Assembly: GCA_949296245.1 (NCBI GenBank)
Contig: CASFNW010000003.1
Coordinates: 1 to 64,000, forward strand
Direction: 5' to 3'
From: an uncultured bacterium
Lineage (GTDB): Bacteria; Cyanobacteriota; Vampirovibrionia; Gastranaerophilales; Gastranaerophilaceae
DNA length: 64,000 nucleotides
Shown here: positions 41,802 to 54,488 of the stretch, one piece after another
Position numbering within the stretch: the stretch's first letter is position 1
Layout of the letters: each line of letters starts with the position of its first letter
Translations under genes and position numbers: made by a program
The notes under the pieces: model-generated
The model's database searches: none
What the model was told of the DNA's origin: nothing
What the model saw: the letters and a program-made list of their open reading frames with translations, nothing else

Positions 41802-44414
41802 TTATATACTTATACGAAAACCGAACTGAAGCGCTATACCGTTTCGTCCTCCGTTTCTTATCATTGCTTCCATAAATCCCGTTACTCTTTCGCCCCATCT
41901 CTTTTGTACACCTGCTCCGTATTGAACAAAAGGTTTTATTGCAAGATTGGGTAAATAAACATCATCGGCCTGAAATTTTGCGTGGTCAATAATATTCCAA
42001 ACCATTGAGACTGCTAGATACGGCTGAAAATAGTTCTTAAAATTGCCTATCAGTTTAATTCTCGGCTCTATCTGTAATGCATGTAAAGGTTTGGTATTTA
42101 TTCTTATATTCTGATAGGTATTATGATTAAAGGTATTTACAAACGAATAAGATGTCAAAACAGACGGCTGTACTATGAGTCTTTTTTTGAACACAGATAT
42201 ATTGTATCCGCTCATCTGTGCTATGCCTGTATTAAACATATTAAAATTGCTGCTGCCAAAGTAAGTTGAGGCTTCTGCAGAATTCGCACCTGCGTTTGCT
42301 GTCCAGGCTGTAAAGAAATTTCCTTTATAGAATACGGAATATATTCCTCCTAAGCCGCCGTTGTTGTAAATACTGTTCCCTTGATATGCCTGATGAGAGC
42401 CGTTATATGACACATATGCCCCGTATATTGTGTACCATCCTTTTTTTAGCTTTTTGAGCCCGCTTTCTGCCCCTACAAGGCTTCCGTAGCTTACATTTGA
42501 TACGGTCGGACCGTTTTTAAGTCCAACTGATTCAAATGTAGAATAAGGTTTAAACCATATACCGTTATGCGTTTCGGGCATGATAAAAGGTGAATAGATA
42601 AAATTCTCTGTTGAAGCGGTTTTATTTACTGCATTAAAACCCGTTTTTATTTCAGGGGGTGTTATCATTACCATATCAAGGTTTGCAAAAACATTGCGGT
42701 AGGTGTCTATCTGGGTTAAATACCCTGCAAGCTGGGTTGCTACCTGTGCAGCCAGTATTGATGAGTCAAATCCGCCTCTTATAAACTGAAAATTTCCGGT
42801 TGAAGAATCATAGCTGATATTGTAATTGTATAAAGGTGTTCGGAGATTCGACGGTGTATATGAGACATAATCTTTTAGTGTGTTGTCTGCAAAAGGAATT
42901 ATTATATCCTTTGCTTTTGGTGTGCCTTCAAGATTTAAGCCGGCGACAAATATATTTCCGTTCCCGCTTACAGAGGAGGCATTTATTGTGTCCATTATAC
43001 TTCCTGTTAAATTTACATCTGCATACAGGTTTGTTGTGCCTGTAAGATTCAGGTTTCCAAAATTTATATTGTTAATTTCATCATTGGCCATGTTAAAGTT
43101 GACATTGCTGCCAAAAGTTGTGTTTTGAGCATTAAAATACTGTGAATCAGAAAGAAGATTTAGTGTTCCTTCATTAAAATTGAAATTTCCCGTATAATTT
43201 TGGTTTTCTCCGCCTAAATTAAGATTGCCTGCATTGTTTTTGTTAATTGTACCTGTGCCTGATATTCCGCTTTGAATTGAATTTGTACCTGTGCCGTTAA
43301 AGTTTATTGTGCCTGTATTATAGATATCGTTTTTTTCATTGTTTTTATCATAATTGTCTTTCATTACTGTGTTGTCAAGATTCAGTGTTCCTCCGTTATA
43401 TACGGCGCCGCCTTCTCCGTATGTAACAGAGGAATCAGTTCTGTTGTTTGACAGAGTAGAATTTTTTAGAGTCATTGTTGCACCTGCAGAATTGTAGAGA
43501 GCACCTCCGTCACCGTAAAGTGCAGATGCAATTCTGTTGTTATCAACCGTAATATTGTCAGCCGTAAAATTTCCGCTGTTAAATATAGCACCGCCATAGG
43601 AAATAGAATTGTCGTGTGCTTTTATATAATTATTATTAAAGTTTGTATTTGTTATGGTAATACTGCCCGTGTTGTTTATTGCTCCGCCGTATACAAAACT
43701 TTGCTGAGGTCTGTCTTCTGTCAGACCTTCTGCATAATTGTTTTTAAAGCTGCTGTTATCAATAACAGCAGAACCGGTATTATTTAAGGCGCCGCCCTCT
43801 GCAAAAGTATAGCCTGAGGCATGGTTTCCGTTAAAATTTGTGCCATTTATAGTCATTTTAGCAGTTCCGCTGTCGTTATATCCGTTTGAGACAGCACCGC
43901 CTACTGCACCTGCTCCGGTTGTATAGTTTGACTCAAAATCTGCATTTTGAAGTATCATTTCTCCGCCCTGCAGATTGTAGACAGCACCGCCTATGCCGAA
44001 GTTTGTGTTTCCCGCATCTGCATAATTATTTTTAAATTCCGAGCTTATAAGGTCAGTTTCGCCTCCAAAGTTGAAAATTGCGCCTGCAAAATTTGAGTTT
44101 TGATAAATCTGACCTGCACAATTTTGCATAATAACTTCGTCAAAAGCGTTATCCCTGCTCAGTATAAATCCCCCGTAGAGATTTTCTCCGTCTATATTGT
44201 ACATATTGCCGTCAAAATTTATATTATAATTGAAAAAATGTCTGTCTATGGATTCTGTTGACACAAGATTATTTGTAAATCTGTAGGTATCACCGTTATT
44301 TAGCTCTGAGTTTAAAAGCTCGAAAAATGAAGAAATATCTATTGTATCGGCAAGGCATCCTGTTTGCAGAATAATTTGTAAAAACAAAATTAATATAAGT
44401 TTTATATTCTTCAT
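41802..44414 (-). CDS. Pmp-like autotransporter with GGA[IVL]/FxxN repeats
   Basis: This is an 870-residue exported outer-membrane protein. A signal sequence (IKLILILFLQIILQ) precedes a passenger of about 500 residues. The passenger carries seven copies of GGA[VIL]xN (GGAVYN, GGAVSN, GGALNN, GGAINN, GGAIFN, GGALYN, GGAVYN) alternating with FxxN words (FESN, FNGN, FKNN, FNNN). That pairing marks chlamydial polymorphic membrane proteins and related right-handed beta-helices. Residues about 600-870 fit an autotransporter barrel (GIWFKPYSTFES, alternating aromatic strands, last strand IALQFGFRISI). Likely a surface adhesin. The cysteine after LQTG does not fit a lipobox well. Confidence 0.88.
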   Translation of the reverse strand: MKNIKLILILFLQIILQTGCLADTIDISSFFELLNSELNNGDTYRFTNNLVSTESIDRHFFNYNINFDGNMYNIDGENLYGGFILSRDNAFDEVIMQNCAGQIYQNSNFAGAIFNFGGETDLISSEFKNNYADAGNTNFGIGGAVYNLQGGEMILQNADFESNYTTGAGAVGGAVSNGYNDSGTAKMTINGTNFNGNHASGYTFAEGGALNNTGSAVIDNSSFKNNYAEGLTEDRPQQSFVYGGAINNTGSITITNTNFNNNYIKAHDNSISYGGAIFNSGNFTADNITVDNNRIASALYGDGGALYNSAGATMTLKNSTLSNNRTDSSVTYGEGGAVYNGGTLNLDNTVMKDNYDKNNEKNDIYNTGTINFNGTGTNSIQSGISGTGTINKNNAGNLNLGGENQNYTGNFNFNEGTLNLLSDSQYFNAQNTTFGSNVNFNMANDEINNINFGNLNLTGTTNLYADVNLTGSIMDTINASSVSGNGNIFVAGLNLEGTPKAKDIIIPFADNTLKDYVSYTPSNLRTPLYNYNISYDSSTGNFQFIRGGFDSSILAAQVATQLAGYLTQIDTYRNVFANLDMVMITPPEIKTGFNAVNKTASTENFIYSPFIMPETHNGIWFKPYSTFESVGLKNGPTVSNVSYGSLVGAESGLKKLKKGWYTIYGAYVSYNGSHQAYQGNSIYNNGGLGGIYSVFYKGNFFTAWTANAGANSAEASTYFGSSNFNMFNTGIAQMSGYNISVFKKRLIVQPSVLTSYSFVNTFNHNTYQNIRINTKPLHALQIEPRIKLIGNFKNYFQPYLAVSMVWNIIDHAKFQADDVYLPNLAIKPFVQYGAGVQKRWGERVTGFMEAMIRNGGRNGIALQFGFRISI

Positions 44415-44923: not shown

Positions 44924-45130
44924 ATGCTTTTGGAGAAGTTAAATATTAAATTTATTGCAGCTATTATAGCAGTAATTGTTCTGGTTTTTACTATAATATT
45001 GTGCATTGCTTCTCCTCAAATGCATAAACCTTTTGAGATAAGTATTATTAAAAATATAATAAAAATTAATGCTGACGGAAGTACATCTGTTACAAAAGAA
45101 ATAACAACTACTAAAATCAGGGAGAAATAG
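44924..45130 (+). CDS. small single-pass membrane protein, unknown
   Basis: This 68-residue protein has one strong membrane helix (FIAAIIAVIVLVFTIILCIA) followed by SPQMHKP and a short polar tail ending in TTTKIREK. The helix-TPxMH arrangement recurs at the N-terminus of the TonB-like protein at 48578 (CFTPKMHN), so the two anchors seem related. I use ATG 44924; a TTG six bases earlier is also possible given the AAAGGAG site. First gene of the cluster 44924-50532, ending two bases before the next start. Confidence 0.65.
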   Translation: MLLEKLNIKFIAAIIAVIVLVFTIILCIASPQMHKPFEISIIKNIIKINADGSTSVTKEITTTKIREK

Positions 45131-45132
45131 TT

Positions 45133-46185
45133 GTGAAAAAATACGTTTCATTAATATTAGCTATAGTTTATTTGTTTTCAACAAATGTATGTTTTGCGTT
45201 TAGCGAGTTGAATTATTTAAAAAACATTGATAAAAATACTTTGATACCTCAGGTAGAAGGTGTTTTGACTGACAATTCTTATGATATAAAACAAAAAAAT
45301 CCCGTATATTCTGTATATTCAGTTTCATCCAAAAAACCGGAAAGACATATATCAATAGTTTTACAGCAAAGCGGTTCAAACCTTTTTTATTATTTTGAAT
45401 CAGACGATTCAAGCAAAAAAGTGCATAAAAAAATTCTTAAAATGATAAAAAAACAGGATATTGTATACGAACAATCTGAAAATCAAATGCATCTTGCAAA
45501 TTTTTCAAAAGTAGTTCAAAAAACAATCTCAGGTGAAAAAACAAAGTATACTTTTGAACAACCGAAACCTTCGGTATCTGCAGATAAACAATCTGCGGTG
45601 ACGAAAAAGCAGGATAATACAACCCTGAAGGGCTTTGTCGGAAAAGTACCTAAGGGTACATCAATGGATGTTTATTTACAGGCAGCTATTAATACTGCTA
45701 CTGCTAATAAAGGTGATAATGTTACTGCTGTTCTAAAAAGCAACTGGATGTATAAAGACTCTATTATTGCGGAACAGGGCAGTTTATTATACGGAACACT
45801 GTCTGAAGCAAATCATGCGAAACTCGGTTCAAGGAACGGCTCTGTTAAAATTGTTTTTAATAATCTTGTTACTCCGAGAGGAAAATCTTATCAAATTTCT
45901 ACAGAGCCTGTAGAATTTAATGTTACAAATGACGGAAAAGTAAAGAAAGCCGTAACAAGTACGCTTGCTGCAGCTGCAATTGGTGCACTTATAGGGTTAG
46001 CTTTTGCTGCACTTACAGGTGATACATCAAATTTAGCCCAGGGAGCAATTATCGGAGCAGGAATAAGCGGCGGCGGTACTCTTATAGCTAACGTTGCAGA
46101 GAAGGGCGTAGATGCGGAAATACCTGCATATACTGATTTGCAGGTAGAGCTGGCAAGTCCATTGTCAGTTGTTTTAAGTTATTAG
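45133..46185 (+). CDS. exported protein with VirB10-like strand pattern and Gly-zipper
   Basis: This 350-residue protein has a signal peptide ending VCFA. Residues 25-150 are charged and unrecognised. From about residue 165, FVGKVPKGTSMDVYLQAAI, GSLLYGTLSEANHAKLGSR and VKIVFNNLVTPRGKSYQI repeat the pattern seen in the protein at 10698. A hydrophobic Gly/Ala segment (AAAAIGALIGLAFAALTG and IIGAGISGGGTLI) follows, then a strand LQVELASPLSV. The layout resembles periplasmic beta-barrel proteins that anchor in an outer membrane. The start is GTG with GGGAG eight bases upstream. Second gene in the cluster. Confidence 0.72.
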   Translation: MKKYVSLILAIVYLFSTNVCFAFSELNYLKNIDKNTLIPQVEGVLTDNSYDIKQKNPVYSVYSVSSKKPERHISIVLQQSGSNLFYYFESDDSSKKVHKKILKMIKKQDIVYEQSENQMHLANFSKVVQKTISGEKTKYTFEQPKPSVSADKQSAVTKKQDNTTLKGFVGKVPKGTSMDVYLQAAINTATANKGDNVTAVLKSNWMYKDSIIAEQGSLLYGTLSEANHAKLGSRNGSVKIVFNNLVTPRGKSYQISTEPVEFNVTNDGKVKKAVTSTLAAAAIGALIGLAFAALTGDTSNLAQGAIIGAGISGGGTLIANVAEKGVDAEIPAYTDLQVELASPLSVVLSY

Positions 46186-46199
46186 AAAATGAGGATTTT

Positions 46200-46871
46200 A
46201 TGAATAATAAAAGATTGATTATACTCGGGATTATAATACTTGTTTGTGCGATTATGTGCAAATTAATCTTTATGGGGCTCAAAAATATAAAAATTGATGA
46301 ATTTAAACCCGCAGCAGTTATTTTTGTGGTAGATGCATCTGCCTCAAATCAAGCAAAACTGGATGAGGAAATAAAATACCTAAAATCAATTTGTTCAATA
46401 CTTGACCCTGAGGATGCTATTAAGATACTCAGAGTCTCGGAAAAATCTTACTTAATTTATGAAGGTGCACCGACTGACGGTTCAGGTATCACAAAAGCTT
46501 TAAATAAATTCACTGAATATGACAGTTCCGAATACGGTACCGCATACGGTGAAGCACTAAAAAAAGCCTTTGATCACTGTCTTACTATGAAAAAAGAAGG
46601 CTACACGCCGTCTGTGGTTGTAATAGGCGATTTAGAAAATGAAGGTGATATATCAAAACAGATTGATTGGGAAACACTGCCTCAAAATGTCAAAAATGTA
46701 CAGAAATATATACCTGAAATTTCTATGATGTTTGCTTATGCAGAGCCTGAAAAATTGGATTATGTAAAAACAAAATTGAATCCTGTTTTAGGAGAAAAGA
46801 AACTTATTATTGTGAATGAGATAACCGTAAATAAATCTCAGAGAAAACTTTTAGAAGCAATCGGAAGGTAG
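46200..46871 (+). CDS. membrane-anchored vWA-domain protein
   Basis: This 223-residue protein has an N-terminal membrane helix (LIILGIIILVCAIMCKLIF) and a von Willebrand A domain outside. The metal site (MIDAS) is D45-A-S47-A-S49 in FVVDASASN, with GTAYGEAL providing the threonine and VVVIGDLENEG the third acidic loop. vWA domains bind protein ligands through a metal ion. It lies 14 bases after the Gly-zipper gene and nine bases before the polytopic gene, so all are probably one message. A second, secreted vWA protein ends the cluster. Confidence 0.82.
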   Translation: MNNKRLIILGIIILVCAIMCKLIFMGLKNIKIDEFKPAAVIFVVDASASNQAKLDEEIKYLKSICSILDPEDAIKILRVSEKSYLIYEGAPTDGSGITKALNKFTEYDSSEYGTAYGEALKKAFDHCLTMKKEGYTPSVVVIGDLENEGDISKQIDWETLPQNVKNVQKYIPEISMMFAYAEPEKLDYVKTKLNPVLGEKKLIIVNEITVNKSQRKLLEAIGR

Positions 46872-46880
46872 GATAAATAA

Positions 46881-48560
46881 ATGACTTTTACTATTATCAC
46901 TAAAAAATTTCAACAGACATTTAATTCCGGTGATGTCATAAATATTACATCAGGAAAAACAAGTGAATGCTGCATAAATTTTGGCTTTGATTATGTACTG
47001 ACAGTAGAATATGACAGAAACACAAATGTTTGTCATTTATTTAATCCGCTTAATTGCGACAGGCTTCTGTTCAAAGGTCAGCCGCTGCCGTCAAAGATGG
47101 ATTTTACCGGTATGTGTAAAATTATGATAAAAGATGCTGACGAATTTATCACAATTAAGTATTCTGAAGAACCTGACTCTGCAGCGCAAAATCAGACTGT
47201 ACCGCTGCTACATTCAGCGCAGACAGTTCATCATCAGGTTTCTCAAACACACAATGTAGCAAATAATCAGCAGCCACATCCTGATTTATCATTAAATAAT
47301 GATGTACAGGGAATGTTTGATGACAGGAACGCTGCTATAAAAATGAAAATAGAAAAGAGAAAAAGCGATATTGAAAAAGTCAGAGTTTCTATTATTAAAC
47401 AGGTCGGCTTTAAGATAAGTGAACTCAAACATAAAATTTCTATGAACTCTAAAGCAGGTATATTTTTGCATATTGCTCTATTTGCTTCATCGATAATACT
47501 TGCATTCGGTTTATCAGGTTATCTTACGGGATTGCCGCTGAAAGATGCTGCAACTATGATACAAATGCCTATAAATATGCGAATAGTTGTTATGTATTCG
47601 ATAATTTTGTACGCAATTGGTCTTGCTCTGAAACAGGGTATTTATTTATACCTGCAAAATAAAACAGAGCGGGCTTCTTCTTCAAATCAATTTGCGGAAA
47701 AGTTTATGATATTGGCACCTTTATTATTTTATTCGGGTGTTTACGCAATAAATTTATTGTATTATATGTCACCTAAGACAATGCCGTTCTTTGCGGTATT
47801 TATGTCTTTGTTTTTTACAGCTTCCAGCATAGCATTAGCTGTTGCCTGCGGGTATTTTAAATACAGCAGTCTTGTCTATTCTCAGGAACTTGATAAATAT
47901 GAATACAGGGAAGATTTTGAAAGCGTTGTAAAAGCTTATCAGCAGTGGATAGAAGCATTTGTTAATAATCTTAGTAATACAAAAATACAGAATATTAAAG
48001 ATAAATTGTTTATGCTCCAGCTAAAATCCATAGGAGAAACTGTTCTCGGTATTTTGACAGCACCGTTTCTTGCATACGGTGTTTCAAACACTCTTGCTAT
48101 GTGTTTCCCGGAAGCAGCAGGCTGGATAAGAATATCAGGCTTAAGGTTCAGTCCGATATTTCTTGTTTTAGCTACATTTTTAATCATTTTTGCATTTTTT
48201 GCTTTTGTAAATGCATTTTTCTGTAATAAAAAAGTTCAGGCATCAAATGTATTAAAAAACGACGGTTTCAGCAATTATCTGCAGCACGGTGTTGAAATAT
48301 ACGGGATTCAAGGAGTAAGAAAACTCGATACGGAAATGAGACGTTCATTTATTATCGGTATATGTATTATCTTTATTGAATTTTCAATGAACATTTCTTA
48401 CTTTATGCAGGAAATGGGCGGCGACCTAAACGGTATGTTCTTAAGCTCGGTTGCGGCTCTTGTTCCTACAGCATTGTTGATTGCGGAAACATATATGCTG
48501 AGCCAGACAAAATTTGAAATCTATGCCTGTGATGAGTTAATTGCAAAAATTGATAACTAA
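46881..48560 (+). CDS. polytopic membrane protein with cytosolic N-terminal domain, unknown
   Basis: This 559-residue protein starts with about 95 residues of beta-rich soluble domain (FNSGDVINITSG, INFGFDYVLTVEY), faintly FHA-like, and a polar linker to residue 190. Then follow about seven to nine hydrophobic segments, for example FLHIALFASSIILAFGLSGY, IVVMYSIILYAIGLALKQG, FFAVFMSLFFTASSIALAVA, FLVLATFLIIFAFFAFVNAF and IIGICIIFIEFSMNISYF. A cytosolic loop lies near residues 335-380. The last segment (VAALVPTALLIAETYML) recalls the pore helices of ExbB/MotA proteins, but I do not consider that proven. It could be the channel or platform of the cluster. Confidence 0.72.
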   Translation: MTFTIITKKFQQTFNSGDVINITSGKTSECCINFGFDYVLTVEYDRNTNVCHLFNPLNCDRLLFKGQPLPSKMDFTGMCKIMIKDADEFITIKYSEEPDSAAQNQTVPLLHSAQTVHHQVSQTHNVANNQQPHPDLSLNNDVQGMFDDRNAAIKMKIEKRKSDIEKVRVSIIKQVGFKISELKHKISMNSKAGIFLHIALFASSIILAFGLSGYLTGLPLKDAATMIQMPINMRIVVMYSIILYAIGLALKQGIYLYLQNKTERASSSNQFAEKFMILAPLLFYSGVYAINLLYYMSPKTMPFFAVFMSLFFTASSIALAVACGYFKYSSLVYSQELDKYEYREDFESVVKAYQQWIEAFVNNLSNTKIQNIKDKLFMLQLKSIGETVLGILTAPFLAYGVSNTLAMCFPEAAGWIRISGLRFSPIFLVLATFLIIFAFFAFVNAFFCNKKVQASNVLKNDGFSNYLQHGVEIYGIQGVRKLDTEMRRSFIIGICIIFIEFSMNISYFMQEMGGDLNGMFLSSVAALVPTALLIAETYMLSQTKFEIYACDELIAKIDN

Positions 48561-48577
48561 CGAAATGAGATATTATT

Positions 48578-49519
48578 TTGTATAAGATATTTATAGTCGC
48601 TATTATATTTTTGGCAATATTATACAGTATGTTTGTTGTGTGTTTTACCCCAAAAATGCACAATCAAATACTTGTGTATGATTCTGCTTATGAAATTGTT
48701 GATACTCATAAAGTAGAAACTGAAACCAAACAGCTTCCCACAAGAACTAATCAGCAGCCGTCTGAAAAAACAGTACAAAAGCAAACAGTGAATAAACCTG
48801 TTACCCGGTTTTTTGTGCAAAAACAGAATAAAACGGTTACAGAACCGGTTACAAAGACTGTAAAACAGCAGACTGTAAAAACTACTGCGGCTGAGAAAAA
48901 AACTCAGCCGGTAAAGCAGGTGCAGACTCAGGTTAAAAAGCAGGTGCAGACTCAGGTTAAAAAGCAGGTGCAGACTCAGGTTAAAAAGCAGGTGCAGACT
49001 CAGGTTAAAAAGCAGGTGCAAACTACAACAAAGCAGGCTTCGAAACCTCAGACTAAGAAAACAGCAACGCAAACCGTTAAAAAAACACCTGCTGCGCAGA
49101 CAAAAACTGCTGAAAAACAGCAAAAAACTTCTGTTCAGATTGCTAAAGAGCAACAGGAGGCAGAACAGTTAGAGCTTATAAGATGGAACAAGTGGCGTTC
49201 GGATTTGCAAAATAAAATCATGCAGGATGTAAGACTTCCTATTGTTCCTCAGGGCACTGTTTTTAAATTTAGTTTTGATGTTGATAAATACGGAAAAGTG
49301 ATGAATATCCAGACGTGGTCTACAAATCCTTCTTTCACACCATATGCTATTCAGTATATTGCACCTGTAATAAGAAGCTATCAGGGAAAATCAATTTTAA
49401 ATTTTCCGGAAGGTTCTAACAGAATCAGCACCACTGTGGAAGGCGGCTGGAAAATTTCTTCATCCACAAAATACAGTACACCTGCAGATTTTAAAGATAT
49501 AGAAACAGTAAGGAATTAA
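48578..49519 (+). CDS. TonB-like protein with tandem QVQTQVKK repeats
   Basis: This 313-residue protein has an N-terminal anchor (FIVAIIFLAILYSMFVVCF) followed by TPKMH. A long Lys/Gln/Thr linker (residues 45-190) includes four exact QVQTQVKK repeats, and the C-terminal domain (RWNKWRSDLQNKIMQDVRLP... FKFSFDVDKYGKVMNIQTW) has the TonB C-terminal fold pattern. TonB-like proteins span the periplasm and pull on outer-membrane partners. The start is TTG, with GAGA about ten bases upstream and no ATG nearby. It is followed two bases later by a second TonB-C-like gene. No ExbD is recognised. Confidence 0.75.
   Translation: MYKIFIVAIIFLAILYSMFVVCFTPKMHNQILVYDSAYEIVDTHKVETETKQLPTRTNQQPSEKTVQKQTVNKPVTRFFVQKQNKTVTEPVTKTVKQQTVKTTAAEKKTQPVKQVQTQVKKQVQTQVKKQVQTQVKKQVQTQVKKQVQTTTKQASKPQTKKTATQTVKKTPAAQTKTAEKQQKTSVQIAKEQQEAEQLELIRWNKWRSDLQNKIMQDVRLPIVPQGTVFKFSFDVDKYGKVMNIQTWSTNPSFTPYAIQYIAPVIRSYQGKSILNFPEGSNRISTTVEGGWKISSSTKYSTPADFKDIETVRN
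48917..49012 (+). repeat. 24-bp tandem repeat, four exact copies
   Basis: Four identical 24-base units (48917, 48941, 48965, 48989) encode QVQTQVKK inside the periplasmic linker of the TonB-like protein; a fifth is partial. Perfect identity at the DNA level implies recent slippage, so copy number may vary between strains. Confidence 0.95.
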
Positions 49520-49521
49520 TA

Positions 49522-50532
49522 ATGTATAAATGCAGCGAATGCGGTAAAATGTTTTTAAATCAAAAGCCGGACTATTGTGACTGCGGCAATGATACTTTTT
49601 TGTATATTCCCGATATAAATAATGGTACTCATAATCCAGCACCTAATCAATCTGTTAACAGTAATAATTATTCATACAGACCTGCTGCAGCAAGGAGATT
49701 TGATAATAAATCATTAATAATATTTACAATTTGTATTTTGTTTTCTTTTGTTTTTCTTTTTTTTATCGGTAATGGTTCTGATAAACAGGAACAACAAGAA
49801 TCTAAGCCTGTAAATAAAAAAGCATTGAACACAAAGATACCGACAATAGATGAAATTTGGATTGAAAGAAAGATTGCGCAGACATCTCCAAAAACGCTCG
49901 AAACCCAGCAAACTAAACAGGCGCCTATTGTGTCAAAAGTTATTGATACATACAACAATGTAAAAAATCAAATTGTAACTCCGGTAAAAAAATCTGCTGC
50001 TGTGTATAAGCCCTCATACACTCCTGTTAAGAAGACTTCATCTTCACAGGTTAAGAAATCAAACAAATCTCAGACAAAAAAAACTTCTGTATCAAATAAG
50101 ACGTTGAGTAATGCTGTAACTTCAAAAACTGTATCTAAAAAGCCTGTTGTTTCAAATATACAAACTTCGGTAAAAACTACAGCCGCGCAAACTGCAAAGC
50201 AGGCTTCAAAACCTGTAGTTAATACAGCTGCAATTCAAAAAGAATATGCAAATTATAAAATCGGTTTACGAAATAAAATTGCATCAAATATAGATTTCAC
50301 TGCTGTTGTAGGTGACGGCTCCTGCATAGTTTCTTTTAAACTTGATGCTTCAGGAAATTTAATAAATCGAGCTTTTTCACAGCAGTCAATAAATGACAGC
50401 CTCAATGATGCTGTCTATTCTGCAATGATGAATACACCGACCTACAAAACCCCTCCTGCTGCGTATAAAAATCAAACATTAAAATTATCCGTTAAAATGA
50501 CAGGCGGCAATTTTGAAGTTAACTTATACTAG
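49522..50532 (+). CDS. zinc-ribbon, membrane-anchored TonB-C-like protein
   Basis: This 336-residue protein begins with a cytosolic zinc ribbon (CSECGKMFLNQ, then CDCGND), followed by a polar linker, a membrane helix (LIIFTICILFSFVFLFFIG, residues about 71-89) and a long Lys/Ser/Thr linker. The C-terminal TonB-like domain (YKIGLRNKIASNIDF, CIVSFKLDASGNLINRAF) completes it. It appears to be a paralogue of the upstream TonB-like protein, with the zinc ribbon added on the cytosolic side. That may sense or contact the polytopic protein. It is last of six co-directional genes. Confidence 0.75.
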   Translation: MYKCSECGKMFLNQKPDYCDCGNDTFLYIPDINNGTHNPAPNQSVNSNNYSYRPAAARRFDNKSLIIFTICILFSFVFLFFIGNGSDKQEQQESKPVNKKALNTKIPTIDEIWIERKIAQTSPKTLETQQTKQAPIVSKVIDTYNNVKNQIVTPVKKSAAVYKPSYTPVKKTSSSQVKKSNKSQTKKTSVSNKTLSNAVTSKTVSKKPVVSNIQTSVKTTAAQTAKQASKPVVNTAAIQKEYANYKIGLRNKIASNIDFTAVVGDGSCIVSFKLDASGNLINRAFSQQSINDSLNDAVYSAMMNTPTYKTPPAAYKNQTLKLSVKMTGGNFEVNLY

Positions 50533-50570
50533 CTGTTTGATTGCCGGTAAGTCTGTATGTTGTTATCTGA

Positions 50571-51488
50571 TTAAAAATCCACATATTCATAGTTTTGTTG
50601 CGGTTTTTGCTGCGGTGCTGTTTGTACAGCATCCGGCGGAGTCTGCATAGATTGTATCAACACGTTTGAAAAACTTGATACATCGTTTGTTGTATACATT
50701 TTTCCGCCCGTTATGTCAGCAAGGCATCTTAATTCCTGAGAAGATGAGGATACAAGTACAACATCAATATGTATATCATTACGTTTCTTTATCAATTCTC
50801 TGGCAAAGGCGCAAGGATCCCCCCCGCAGTTTTCACCGCCGTCTGTAATAAGTACTATTTTCTTTGCAAAATTTGCAGGCATTCCTGCAAAATCTTGCTC
50901 AACCGCCTGATATAGACCGTAAGTCAGAGGTGTTGAGCCGCCTAATGAAAAGGAATTCATACCTGTTACAAGTGCTTGAGTGTTGTTTTGCAAAACCGGT
51001 GCAGCTTGTGCTGTTGCACTGCAGGAACCTGATGTCGAGCCGAGATAATCATCACTTTTTGTTGCTACTTTATATTTTCCGTTTGCTGTTTTAATAATCT
51101 CTTTTACTTTAGCAAGGTTTGGTTTATACGGATTGTTCCCGCCGTTTTGTCCGAATACCCTGAAACCGATACGTGTAGATGGCGGCAGCTGGGAAATGAT
51201 TTGCGTCATTGTTTTCTGAGCTTCCTGTATCCAGTAGAGCATACTTCCTGAGTAATCCATGACAATGTCTATTGTTCCTACCTGTCCTGCCAGTACTTTT
51301 TGTGAATTTACATACTGCGGTGCATAATAATTGTTGTATAAATTCGTCTGTGTATTTAAAACACTGTTTTGCTGCACGCTGCCTGAGGGGGAAGTAACTT
51401 TTCCGCTTGTATTAACTTTATATTTTGCAGCAAATGCAGTGAGTGAAAATGCTGTCATCAAAAAAAGTACAATGATTACTTTTTTCAT
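50571..51488 (-). CDS. secreted vWA-domain protein
   Basis: This 305-residue protein has a signal peptide ending AFA. The vWA domain has a complete MIDAS: D78-Y-S80-G-S82 (IDIVMDYSGSM), GGSTPLTYG with the threonine, and LITDGGENCGGD. There are four cysteines in the domain (CSAT, NCGGDPC, RCLAD), consistent with disulfides outside the cytoplasm. The last 25 residues are Gln/Pro-rich. It is convergent with the six-gene cluster, has its own promoter, and likely works with it, since a second vWA protein is encoded there. Confidence 0.88.
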   Translation of the reverse strand: MKKVIIVLFLMTAFSLTAFAAKYKVNTSGKVTSPSGSVQQNSVLNTQTNLYNNYYAPQYVNSQKVLAGQVGTIDIVMDYSGSMLYWIQEAQKTMTQIISQLPPSTRIGFRVFGQNGGNNPYKPNLAKVKEIIKTANGKYKVATKSDDYLGSTSGSCSATAQAAPVLQNNTQALVTGMNSFSLGGSTPLTYGLYQAVEQDFAGMPANFAKKIVLITDGGENCGGDPCAFARELIKKRNDIHIDVVLVSSSSQELRCLADITGGKMYTTNDVSSFSNVLIQSMQTPPDAVQTAPQQKPQQNYEYVDF

Positions 51489-51536: not shown

Positions 51537-54488
51537 TCAAAATAAACTGAGCTGATTTACATTATCATTTTCTGTCTTTTTATATTCTTTATCAAAATTT
51601 GTAAGCTTTAGCAGGTCACGTTCTATTTTTTCTAAGAAAGGTGAAATCTCTCTACTTTCTGTTTTGCCGAATATGTGTCTTTTTTTTGCTCTTGTTAAAA
51701 ACAGAAGCTGTTTTGCTCGTGTCATTCCCACGTATAAAAGACGCCTTTCTTCTTCAATTTCTTTTTCTGTTTCGGCTTTGTATAAAGGTATCAATCCGTT
51801 TTCAAGACCGGCTATAAATACACAGTTGAATTCCAATCCTTTTGAAGAATGCAAAGTCATTAAAGAAATTCTGTCCGCACGTGAATCAATTGTATCTGAT
51901 TCTTTCAACAATGATACTTCGTGTATAAAATCATTTTTATTTTTATATTCAAGTGCAAGTTTTTCTATATATTCCCAGATAAAAGAATCTATTTTGTTTT
52001 CAAAATCATTTTTTAGATGTTTTAGCTGCTCACTTATATCTATATTGTTATTGAGTTTCTTTAATAAGTTTCTTACTTCTTTTTTCGTGCATAACAAATC
52101 ATCGGATAGCTTTACAAACGGCATCCCTGATCTTGTAAGAGCTTCTTCTATCGGCTTTAGCTGCAGTGATGTTCTGTATAGAATCGCGATATCTCCAAAT
52201 GAAAATTCGCTGCTCTGACCGTCTGTCCTGTCAGTATCTATTGAAAAGAGATTGTGCCCGCCTATCAAATTTTCGATTGTGCTTACTATAAATTCCGCTT
52301 CGGATTTTTCTGCGGGAGCTGTATGGATTGTGATTTTATTATTTACGGAAATGCCTTTTGAAATTGTGTTGAACGACTCTATCATTTGATTTGAAGCGTT
52401 TACTATGTCTTTTGTACTCCTGTAGTTGTTTTTCAAATTGATAGTCGCAACATCAGAATAATCATTTGTAAAATTGTTGAAAAATTTAGCGTCTCCTCCT
52501 CTAAAACCGTATATTGCCTGATTAGGGTCTCCTATGACGCACATATTTGTATCATCAGTTGCAAGCATTTTTATAAGCTTATACTGCTGTTCATCAATAT
52601 CCTGATATTCATCGACAGAAATATATTTAAATTTTGTCCTATATGCTGAAAGAACATCAGGATGATTATCGAAAAGTTTTATTGTTAATTTGATTAAATC
52701 GTCAAAGCATAACATATTATCAGGGAGGTTGTTATATAAAGCTTTTTCCTCTTCCGATATAACCTGAAAATCTTCAGTCAGTCCGGCAAGACTGTAATTT
52801 TCTTTTAATATCGAAAAACATAACGAATGGAATGTATTTATACTGATTGCTTCTGTCTGTTTATTCTCAAGAAGTATGGCAAGTCTGTCTTTTAGTTCTT
52901 GTGCTGCTTTTCTTGTAAAAGTTATCGCCAGACAGCTTTCTGCCGGTATATTCTTTTCTTTAATTAAATAAGCTATACGTTTTGTAAGTACAGTTGTCTT
53001 ACCGGATCCGGGGCCTGCTGTTATCAACAGCTTTTTAGCTGTGTTTTCAACTGCTGCATACTGGTATTCATCCAGTTTTGCTGTCTTTGTCGTCTCTGTA
53101 TTCTGTGTATTTGCCGGATTGGGGCTTACATTACTCAAATTATTTAGAGAATACTCTTTAGTATTTAATGAGTTTTTTGCGTTATTGTTTTCTATTTCCG
53201 GTGTATTTGGAATGTTTATATCGAGTTTTAAATTAACGGAGTTTTTTTTTACAATTTCATCATCATTGAATAGTTTTATTATGCCGTATTCTCCGTCATA
53301 TCCAGATTGTCTTATAACTTCTCCTTTTCTTAGTCTTGAAATTGCTTCTGCTAATAGAGGAGAATGAACTTTTTCTATTTCTTCGACAGGTATACTTGTA
53401 AGAATTGAAAGTTCAGAACCCAGTTTGTGTATTAAATTTTCATATTCAAAAGACACTGATTTACTTGCAGGACCAACCTGCATTATTTCAGAAAGAATTT
53501 CCGGCAGAGGAACAAGACTTACCACTTTTCCTGCAGTAGCAGGCGGTGTAACCTGACCTTGTCTGTCAGAAAGCTCATATACTCTGTTTGCTACACCTAT
53601 TGTAAGAGGCTTCCCGCATACGGGACAGATTCCGTTTAGCTTTTTAGTCTCGGAGGGTGTAAGGCAAATGTTGCATTTTCTGTGCCCGTCATCATGGTAT
53701 TTTCCTTCTTCAGGGAAGAATTCTACCGTTCCTACATATCCTCTGCCCGTTTTTAGTGCATTCATCATACTGAAATAATCAGGTTCCGTATCAAATATCG
53801 TAGCTTCTCTTGCCAGTTTCGACGGAGAATGCGCATCAGAGTTTGAAACAAGTCTGTATTTATCAAGGCTTGAAACATGCCAGTTCATCTCAGGATCAGA
53901 TGAAAGCCCTGTTTCAACCGCAAAAATATGGTCTGACAAATCTTCATAGCATTCCTCAATGGAATCAAATCCCGATTTTGAACCCAGAACAGAAAACCAT
54001 GGGGTCCAAATATGTGCAGGGATTATAAAACTTCCTTCTCCTGATTCAAGAACTGTTTCCAGAAGATTTCTTGAATCCAATCCGAGTATCGGTCTGCCGT
54101 CAGAGTTTATATTTCCTATTGCACCAAGTTTCTGCCTGAAATTCTGTGCGGATTCCATATCCGGAGAAAAAACGACATGATGAACTTTTCTTGTTTTGTC
54201 TCCTTTTTTATATATTGTGGAAATTTCAACGGAAAGTATAAAATATACAGGCTTTTCAGGGGTTAAAATTTGTTTTTCTATATCCGGACGCAGTCTGAAT
54301 ATACCGTTTCCTGCAGGCACGAGTTTTTCTTTAATTTCATTAAACCATGCAGGATGTGTAAAATCGCCTGTAGAAATAACACTCAATCCTTTTTTCTGTG
54401 CCCATACGGCGAGTTCTTCAAGGTTGCAGTTTTTGCTGGTGGCTCTTGAATATTTGGAATGTATGTGTAAATCCGCATAAAATAACAT
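51537..54488 (-). CDS. endonuclease Q-like PHP nuclease fused to UvrD helicase
   Basis: A 983-residue fusion. Residues 1-255 are a PHP domain matching the TIGR00375/endonuclease Q family: H8-x-H10 in ADLHIHSKYSRATS, D42/H45 in TGDFTHP, H159 in AHIWTPWFS, D218/H220 in NSDAHSP. A zinc ribbon follows (C272, C275, C288, C291). After a family-specific domain (to about 415) and a disordered linker comes a UvrD helicase: Walker A GPGSGKT (492-498), DEYQD (626-630), TLHSSKGLEFN, YVGMTRAKQ. The last five residues are QLSLF, a consensus beta-clamp-binding motif. EndoQ nicks DNA 5' to deaminated bases, so the fusion probably nicks and unwinds in one step at replication forks. Confidence 0.9.
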   Translation of the reverse strand: MLFYADLHIHSKYSRATSKNCNLEELAVWAQKKGLSVISTGDFTHPAWFNEIKEKLVPAGNGIFRLRPDIEKQILTPEKPVYFILSVEISTIYKKGDKTRKVHHVVFSPDMESAQNFRQKLGAIGNINSDGRPILGLDSRNLLETVLESGEGSFIIPAHIWTPWFSVLGSKSGFDSIEECYEDLSDHIFAVETGLSSDPEMNWHVSSLDKYRLVSNSDAHSPSKLAREATIFDTEPDYFSMMNALKTGRGYVGTVEFFPEEGKYHDDGHRKCNICLTPSETKKLNGICPVCGKPLTIGVANRVYELSDRQGQVTPPATAGKVVSLVPLPEILSEIMQVGPASKSVSFEYENLIHKLGSELSILTSIPVEEIEKVHSPLLAEAISRLRKGEVIRQSGYDGEYGIIKLFNDDEIVKKNSVNLKLDINIPNTPEIENNNAKNSLNTKEYSLNNLSNVSPNPANTQNTETTKTAKLDEYQYAAVENTAKKLLITAGPGSGKTTVLTKRIAYLIKEKNIPAESCLAITFTRKAAQELKDRLAILLENKQTEAISINTFHSLCFSILKENYSLAGLTEDFQVISEEEKALYNNLPDNMLCFDDLIKLTIKLFDNHPDVLSAYRTKFKYISVDEYQDIDEQQYKLIKMLATDDTNMCVIGDPNQAIYGFRGGDAKFFNNFTNDYSDVATINLKNNYRSTKDIVNASNQMIESFNTISKGISVNNKITIHTAPAEKSEAEFIVSTIENLIGGHNLFSIDTDRTDGQSSEFSFGDIAILYRTSLQLKPIEEALTRSGMPFVKLSDDLLCTKKEVRNLLKKLNNNIDISEQLKHLKNDFENKIDSFIWEYIEKLALEYKNKNDFIHEVSLLKESDTIDSRADRISLMTLHSSKGLEFNCVFIAGLENGLIPLYKAETEKEIEEERRLLYVGMTRAKQLLFLTRAKKRHIFGKTESREISPFLEKIERDLLKLTNFDKEYKKTENDNVNQLSLF

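Follow-up and report, generated by a model that had tools for sequence, protein, structure and literature searches.

Organization and conservation of the gene block

The window analyzed here, which is the whole stretch of 64,000 nucleotides formed by positions 1–64000 of contig C3 of a Gastranaerophilales genome (2.03 Mb, 61 contigs), contains a block of seven genes, designated P1 to P7 (Table 1). The products include two proteins with von Willebrand factor A (vWA) domains (P3 and P7), two rod-like proteins with TonB/TolA-type or putative TonB-like C-terminal domains (P5 and P6) and a polytopic membrane protein, P4. The six co-directional genes P1–P6 are separated by gaps of 2, 14, 9, 17 and 2 bases, and the convergent gene P7 follows 38 bases from P6. 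All seven genes were found at the positions given by an initial annotation that had been made from the sequence alone.

In 40 neighborhoods defined by the presence of P4, P3 was found in 38, P5 in 36, P6 in 28, P2 in 24 and P7 in 19; families outside the block each occurred in at most 8 of these neighborhoods, and the outer neighbors varied. A wider set comprised 82 distinct P4 loci with at least 1.5 kb of flanking sequence. Counted over all 82, P5 was present in 78, P3 in 74, P2 and P6 in 64 each, P1 in 51 and P7 in 37. One of the 82 loci (L073) was a chance hit. In all 81 real loci a vWA gene lies beside P4, because loci without P3 carry P7-type genes, and P5 and/or P6 are present in 79. In one locus (L072:3672–7439), four P7-type vWA genes stand in tandem and are transcribed away from a P2-P4-P5-P6 block without P3. 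Many genomes harbor a second, shorter copy, P3-P4-P5, at another site. The constant core of the module is a vWA protein, P4 and a TonB-like rod. Conservation of the block is far above chance, and the six genes together with the convergent vWA gene form a real module; dispersal of the genes in relatives was looked for and not found, confirming that they belong together.

Table 1. Genes of the block and flanking features in the window
Feature	Position	Strand	Description
Pmp-like gene	41802..44414	-	870 aa; repeated GGA and FxxN-type motifs
Intergenic region 5' of P1	44500..44830		Mosaic of dispersed repeats; 68 matches in own genome
P1	44924..45130	+	68-aa transmembrane (TM) anchor, P-x-M-H motif; resembles a truncated P5 N-terminus
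P2	45133..46185	+	Exported; TrbI/VirB10-like domain and Gly-zipper helices; proposed to partner the rods on the outer-membrane side
P3	46200..46871	+	TM-anchored vWA protein; conserved residues D45, S47, S49, T114, D144 of the metal ion-dependent adhesion site (MIDAS)
P4	46881..48560	+	Proposed hub; degenerate forkhead-associated (FHA) domain (residues 1–97) and eight-TM core (150–559); invariant E386, E500, E536
P5	48578..49519	+	Rod; N-terminal TM helix, K/Q/T-rich linker, putative divergent TonB-like C-terminal domain
P5 linker repeat	48913..49024		24-bp tandem repeat, 4.7 copies, 98% matches
P6	49522..50532	+	Rod; cytosolic zinc ribbon (C4, C7, C19, C21), TM helix, linker, TonB/TolA C-terminal domain
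P7	50571..51488	-	Convergent secreted vWA protein; MIDAS D78, S80, S82, T186, D216
UvrD-type gene	51537..54488	-	983 aa; UvrD helicase from about residue 470; N-terminal region reads as PHP-type phosphoesterase

P4 was found in 200 of 382 genomes of the class and in 128 of 386 genomes of the phylum. Among the matches listed, the P4-positive genomes all belong to one family; a P4 match also occurs in one 66%-complete genome of another family. G043, a candidate P4 relative from outside the family, was rejected as a chance match, since it is missed by the profile and has unrelated neighbors. In GTDB contigs, P4 relatives were detected on 325 stretches, 80 of which were kept for analysis. The named relatives are metagenome-assembled genomes (MAGs) of Candidatus Gastranaerophilales or Melainabacteria, including Candidatus Gastranaerophilus phascolarctosicola Zag_221, and P4-bearing records labeled, for instance, “Acinetobacter” look like mislabeled MAGs. 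A phage or plasmid origin was discarded, as no P4 match was found there, and so was assignment to a defense system, the sole support for which was a low-complexity PADLOC match in P5.

The Pmp-like autotransporter encoded just before P1 had initially been placed in the same system. Its gene is near the block in 7 of the 40 neighborhoods, adjoins it only in close relatives and is divergently transcribed, and the protein has no Pfam match at an E-value of 0.01; we do not retain it as a component.

The rods P5 and P6 and the anchor P1

Four cysteines at the N-terminus of P6 are invariant. The C-terminal domain of the protein is recognized by the Pfam profile TonB_2 in 64 of 64 homologues (best E-value 3.1e-9), the P6 of the window itself scoring 18.0 bits and hence below the Pfam cut-off of 22. 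Profile alignment (hhalign) to the TolA-like proteins of the same genomes covers the full length of the domain (97 columns, E 1.2e-9), and a PDB sequence search with the P6 profile gave weak TonB matches (E 0.07). Judged by these profile matches, P6 is a true TonB/TolA C-terminal domain protein. P5 has no Pfam TonB match. Its C-terminal domain, residues 195–313, aligns to that of P6 with an E-value of 3.5e-5 (40 columns) and to TolA with 6.6e-4 (72 columns), compared with 0.08–0.13 for unrelated controls, suggesting a putative, divergent TonB-like domain. The assignment of two TonB-like C-terminal domains in the initial annotation thus holds for P6 and, for P5, in this divergent form only. Searches of PDB sequences with profiles of P2, P4 and P5 yielded no useful match. 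The length of the tandem repeat in the P5 linker is expected to vary between strains.

A juxtamembrane anchor motif common to two of the proteins had been noted, and it is real: P-x-[MLI]-H is present in 70 of 73 P1 homologues and 106 of 114 P5 homologues. Since the P1 and P5 profiles also match each other, P1 looks like a truncated start of P5. The shared motif is consistent with a common membrane partner of P1 and P5, on which it may perhaps form a docking site.

P4 combines a degenerate FHA domain with an eight-TM core

Sequence libraries gave no family assignment for P4, and none of 79 members has a Pfam match. In an AlphaFold2 model built with 79 sequences (mean pLDDT 80), residues 1–97 form an all-beta domain that matches FHA domains, the best being 6ccd (FHA-1 of Rv1747; VIA Z 11.4, 2.6 Å, 93 residues), with about 50 FHA entries above VIA Z 8. 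The residues by which FHA domains read phosphothreonine are absent from P4, as the S[RK]xH motif occurs in 0 of 115 sequences and no Arg follows the Gly turn; we therefore regard the domain as degenerate. In four loci of genus g31 (L259–L262), stand-alone 99-aa homologues of the FHA-like domain are encoded, and in the four loci read their genes adjoin a gene for a predicted TolC-like outer membrane protein.

Folded alone, the P4 core gave long helices with eight hydrophobic segments (pLDDT 87, pTM 0.71). The TM segments, with ends adjusted by hand to the helices of the model, are approximately 193–212, 231–250, 275–293, 303–321, 383–408, 425–447, 487–508 and 516–538. As their number is even, the N- and C-terminus lie on one side, presumably the cytosol. 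The “polytopic protein with a cytosolic domain” of the initial annotation is thereby upheld as polytopic and refined to an FHA fold plus eight hydrophobic TM segments. Mean column identity of the TM core is 77%. Both alignments contain three invariant glutamates: E500 halfway along TM7, and E386 and E536 closer to the ends of TM5 and TM8, respectively.

A relationship of P4 to the ExbB/TolQ/MotA motors, which had been proposed for a profile check, was not borne out. Profile alignment (hhalign) to TolQ gave an E-value of 0.16, and the eight TM segments differ from the three- or four-TM layout of these motors, so that P4 as a diverged TolQ/ExbB is unsupported. Against solved structures, the core had no significant Foldseek match (best E 0.065, TM-scores of about 0.2 or lower); the best VIA Z was 7.8. 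These values are within the noise for helical proteins, and the lack of a match is not proof of a new fold.

P2 and the vWA proteins

P2 had been described as an exported Gly-zipper protein. The Gly-zipper region is present (46 of 68 homologues), and the N-terminus is signal-like by reading of the sequence; the description has to be extended by a TrbI/VirB10-like domain, since Pfam TrbI matches 25 of the 68 homologues at E ≤ 0.1 (best 3.6e-10). The P2 of the window scores 26.8 bits against TrbI, below the curated threshold of 35. Its C-terminal domain thus resembles VirB10/TrbI of type IV secretion, whereas P2 begins with a signal sequence in place of the inner-membrane anchor and cytosolic tail of those proteins. 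Membership of P2 in a type IV secretion system was rejected, because a VirB4-type ATPase was detected in 0 of 30 genomes; the block itself encodes no secretion ATPase.

The identification of an anchored and a secreted vWA protein was corroborated by Pfam matches of P3 to VWA_2 (E 2e-7, above the curated cut-off) and of P7 to VWA (E 1.8e-8). The MIDAS site (D-x-S-x-S, T, D) is kept in the alignments of both proteins, its residues being invariant in 15 aligned homologues of P7. Basic residues preceding the TM segment of P3 suggest that its vWA domain is periplasmic.

The Tol operon of the same genomes and loss of the docking motif

Initially, no genes for ExbB/ExbD, a TonB receptor or secretion had been recognized. 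ExbB/ExbD/TonB genes are indeed absent at the locus but present elsewhere in the genome. Contig C9 carries a canonical Tol operon (L218) with the order Omp85, P2-like, TolA-like, TolQ, TolR, TolR. TolQ/ExbB/MotA-type proteins occur in 59 of 59 genomes and TolR/ExbD in 57 of 59. From across the class, 28 TolA-TolQ-TolR loci were inspected, and each contains a P2-family gene (L218:8782–9495 in the host genome; L223–L251); in the operons read out, including those of a more distant family of the class, this gene is located directly upstream of the TolA-like gene. The P2-family protein may be an unrecognized Tol component of these bacteria. That this family accompanies TonB-type rods in two separate operons is the strongest hint at a role as outer-side partner of the rods.

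TolA and TonB dock to their motors via a Ser/His motif in the TM helix (PMC12204202). In the genomes studied here, S-x3-H near the N-terminus is present in 27 of 27 TolA-like proteins, whereas a histidine in the TM core was found in 0 of 73 P5 and 0 of 64 P6 sequences. The rods have lost the docking motif, which makes TolQR an unlikely driver; going by their sequences, P5 and P6 are probably not run by TolQR. Since P4 is the most constant neighbor, it is the natural candidate for the partner of the rods. TonB-dependent receptors are almost absent, with a plug domain in only 1 of 25 genomes of the family, and a role of the block in Ton import was therefore rejected.

Comparison with known systems

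The nearest functional likeness of the block is to the Tol/Ton class. As in Tol-Pal and Ton, rods with an N-terminal TM helix, a long linker and a TonB/TolA C-terminal domain, the latter putative in P5, are encoded, and, as in the Tol operon of the same genomes, they are encoded together with a P2-family protein. The block differs from this class in lacking TolQ/TolR genes and the S-x3-H motif in its rods, in having an eight-TM FHA protein and vWA proteins instead, and in the cytosolic zinc ribbon of one rod.

The Agl-Glt system of Myxococcus comprises an FHA domain and two TonB-like rods, GltG and GltJ (PMC3169522, PMC5349195), and a vWA surface adhesin, CglB (as cited in PMC12288465). The likeness to our block is one of ingredients, namely FHA domain, TonB-like rods and vWA protein. 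GltJ also has a cytosolic zinc ribbon, as in P6. However, the FHA domain resides on the single-TM rod GltG and not on an eight-TM protein such as P4, and Glt has a TolQR-type motor, AglRQS, whereas the block contains no TolQR-type gene. The AglRQS motor of Myxococcus is encoded in a cluster of its own (M1), so absence of a TolQR-type gene from the block is weak evidence against a Glt system; given the TolQR-type motor and the position of the FHA domain on a rod in Glt, we do not file the block as such.

P3 resembles the vWA force transducers encoded beside tolQ (PMC12204202) in its inner-membrane tether, its predicted periplasmic vWA domain and its TonB/Tol-like setting. It lacks their SHLS motif and TM aspartate, and tolQ is not adjacent. 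As both motor-binding features are missing and the block contains no tolQ, P3 was not assigned to this group.

Proposed mode of action and alternative explanations

We tentatively favor, at somewhat less than even odds, the interpretation of the block as a lineage-specific trans-envelope system of the Tol/TonB type, with P4 as the hub around which P3 and the rods are assembled; it looks like a parallel system in which P4 and P3 take the place of TolQ/TolR. From the force-transmitting machine of the initial annotation, this interpretation retains the TonB-type rods, the polytopic hub and, as probable, the trans-envelope nature of the system; force transmission, a motor role of P4 and an adaptor role of the vWA proteins are hypotheses. 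We infer a physical complex in which P4 would be an inner-membrane protein whose FHA domain faces the cytosol, and P3, with its TM anchor and periplasmic vWA domain, and the rods P5 and P6 would gather around it. The rods would span the periplasm on flexible linkers, and their TonB/TolA-like C-terminal domains would bind a partner on the outer-membrane side, most likely P2, with its TrbI/VirB10-like domain and Gly-zipper, and/or the secreted vWA protein P7 through metal-dependent binding. P4 and P3, standing where TolQ/TolR stand in the related operon, would hold or gate the rods, and control inputs from the cytosolic side might come through the P6 zinc ribbon and the P4 FHA domain. Speculatively, P4 could pull the rods, using the proton gradient through its invariant intramembrane glutamates; this idea is based on exclusion, given the missing TolQR-docking histidine of the rods, and on the glutamates themselves. 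We consider unlikely the further proposal that P4 is an energy transducer of the membrane that belongs to a novel class, has no relationship to ExbB/TolQ/MotA and, with the tethered vWA protein, drives TonB-like rods by the proton gradient.

Several observations weigh against the favored interpretation. The shorter copies do not include P2, P6 or P7, which means that the outer-side partner is not a fixed component; profile and solved-fold searches showed no homology of P4 to motors; its intramembrane glutamates can be structural; and the C-terminal domain of P5 is TonB-like only weakly.

The alternative that fares best, albeit doubtful, is a passive trans-envelope tether or sensor of the envelope state, in which P4 would be a scaffold and signal relay, no energy would be transduced, and the rods would hold the two membranes at a set distance or gauge how far apart they are. 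The lack of motor homology of P4, the missing motor-docking motif of the rods, the regulatory-type domains (FHA, zinc ribbon) on the cytosolic side and the near absence of TonB-dependent receptors to be energized are all in line with such a function, whereas three invariant glutamates within the membrane segments of P4 or at their ends and the very strong conservation of its TM core exceed what a plain anchor needs. It is distinctly improbable that the housekeeping TolQ/TolR motor encoded elsewhere serves P5 and P6 as additional clients, with P4 and P3 as accessory proteins. The near-universal presence of TolQ/ExbB-type and TolR/ExbD proteins and the TolA-like character of the P6 C-terminal domain over its full length would fit, but P5 and P6 lack the S-x3-H motif that all 27 TolA-like proteins of these genomes keep, and we know of no Glt-type rods without a cognate motor. 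Least probable is a machinery for secretion or surface assembly by which P7-type vWA proteins or other adhesins would be exported, with P2 as outer-side channel component. The TrbI/VirB10-like domain and the P7-type genes adjoining the block (four in L072) would accord with it, but 30 genomes yielded no VirB4-type ATPase, the block encodes no secretion ATPase, P2 homologues are found in the Tol operon and over half of the loci lack P7.

No earlier description of the block was found in the literature, most subscription journals lying outside the coverage, and the literature on Gastranaerophilales contained nothing relevant on TonB or TolQ; the system is apparently undescribed. To our knowledge, the TonB/Tol-type rods characterized so far all work via the same 5:2 motor of the ExbBD/TolQR type. 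In the block, rods of the TonB/TolA type have been kept, together with a putative outer-side partner from a family that the genome's own Tol operon also encodes; the docking motif is gone, and an eight-TM FHA protein occupies the position of the motor. It thus provides a concrete, testable case for the question of whether such rods can be operated, or serve passively, in the absence of an ExbBD/TolQR-type motor. The block may represent a mode of action across the cell envelope that has not been described before, and it offers a lead to the role of a set of conserved hypothetical genes of gut Gastranaerophilales, for which functional data are scarce.

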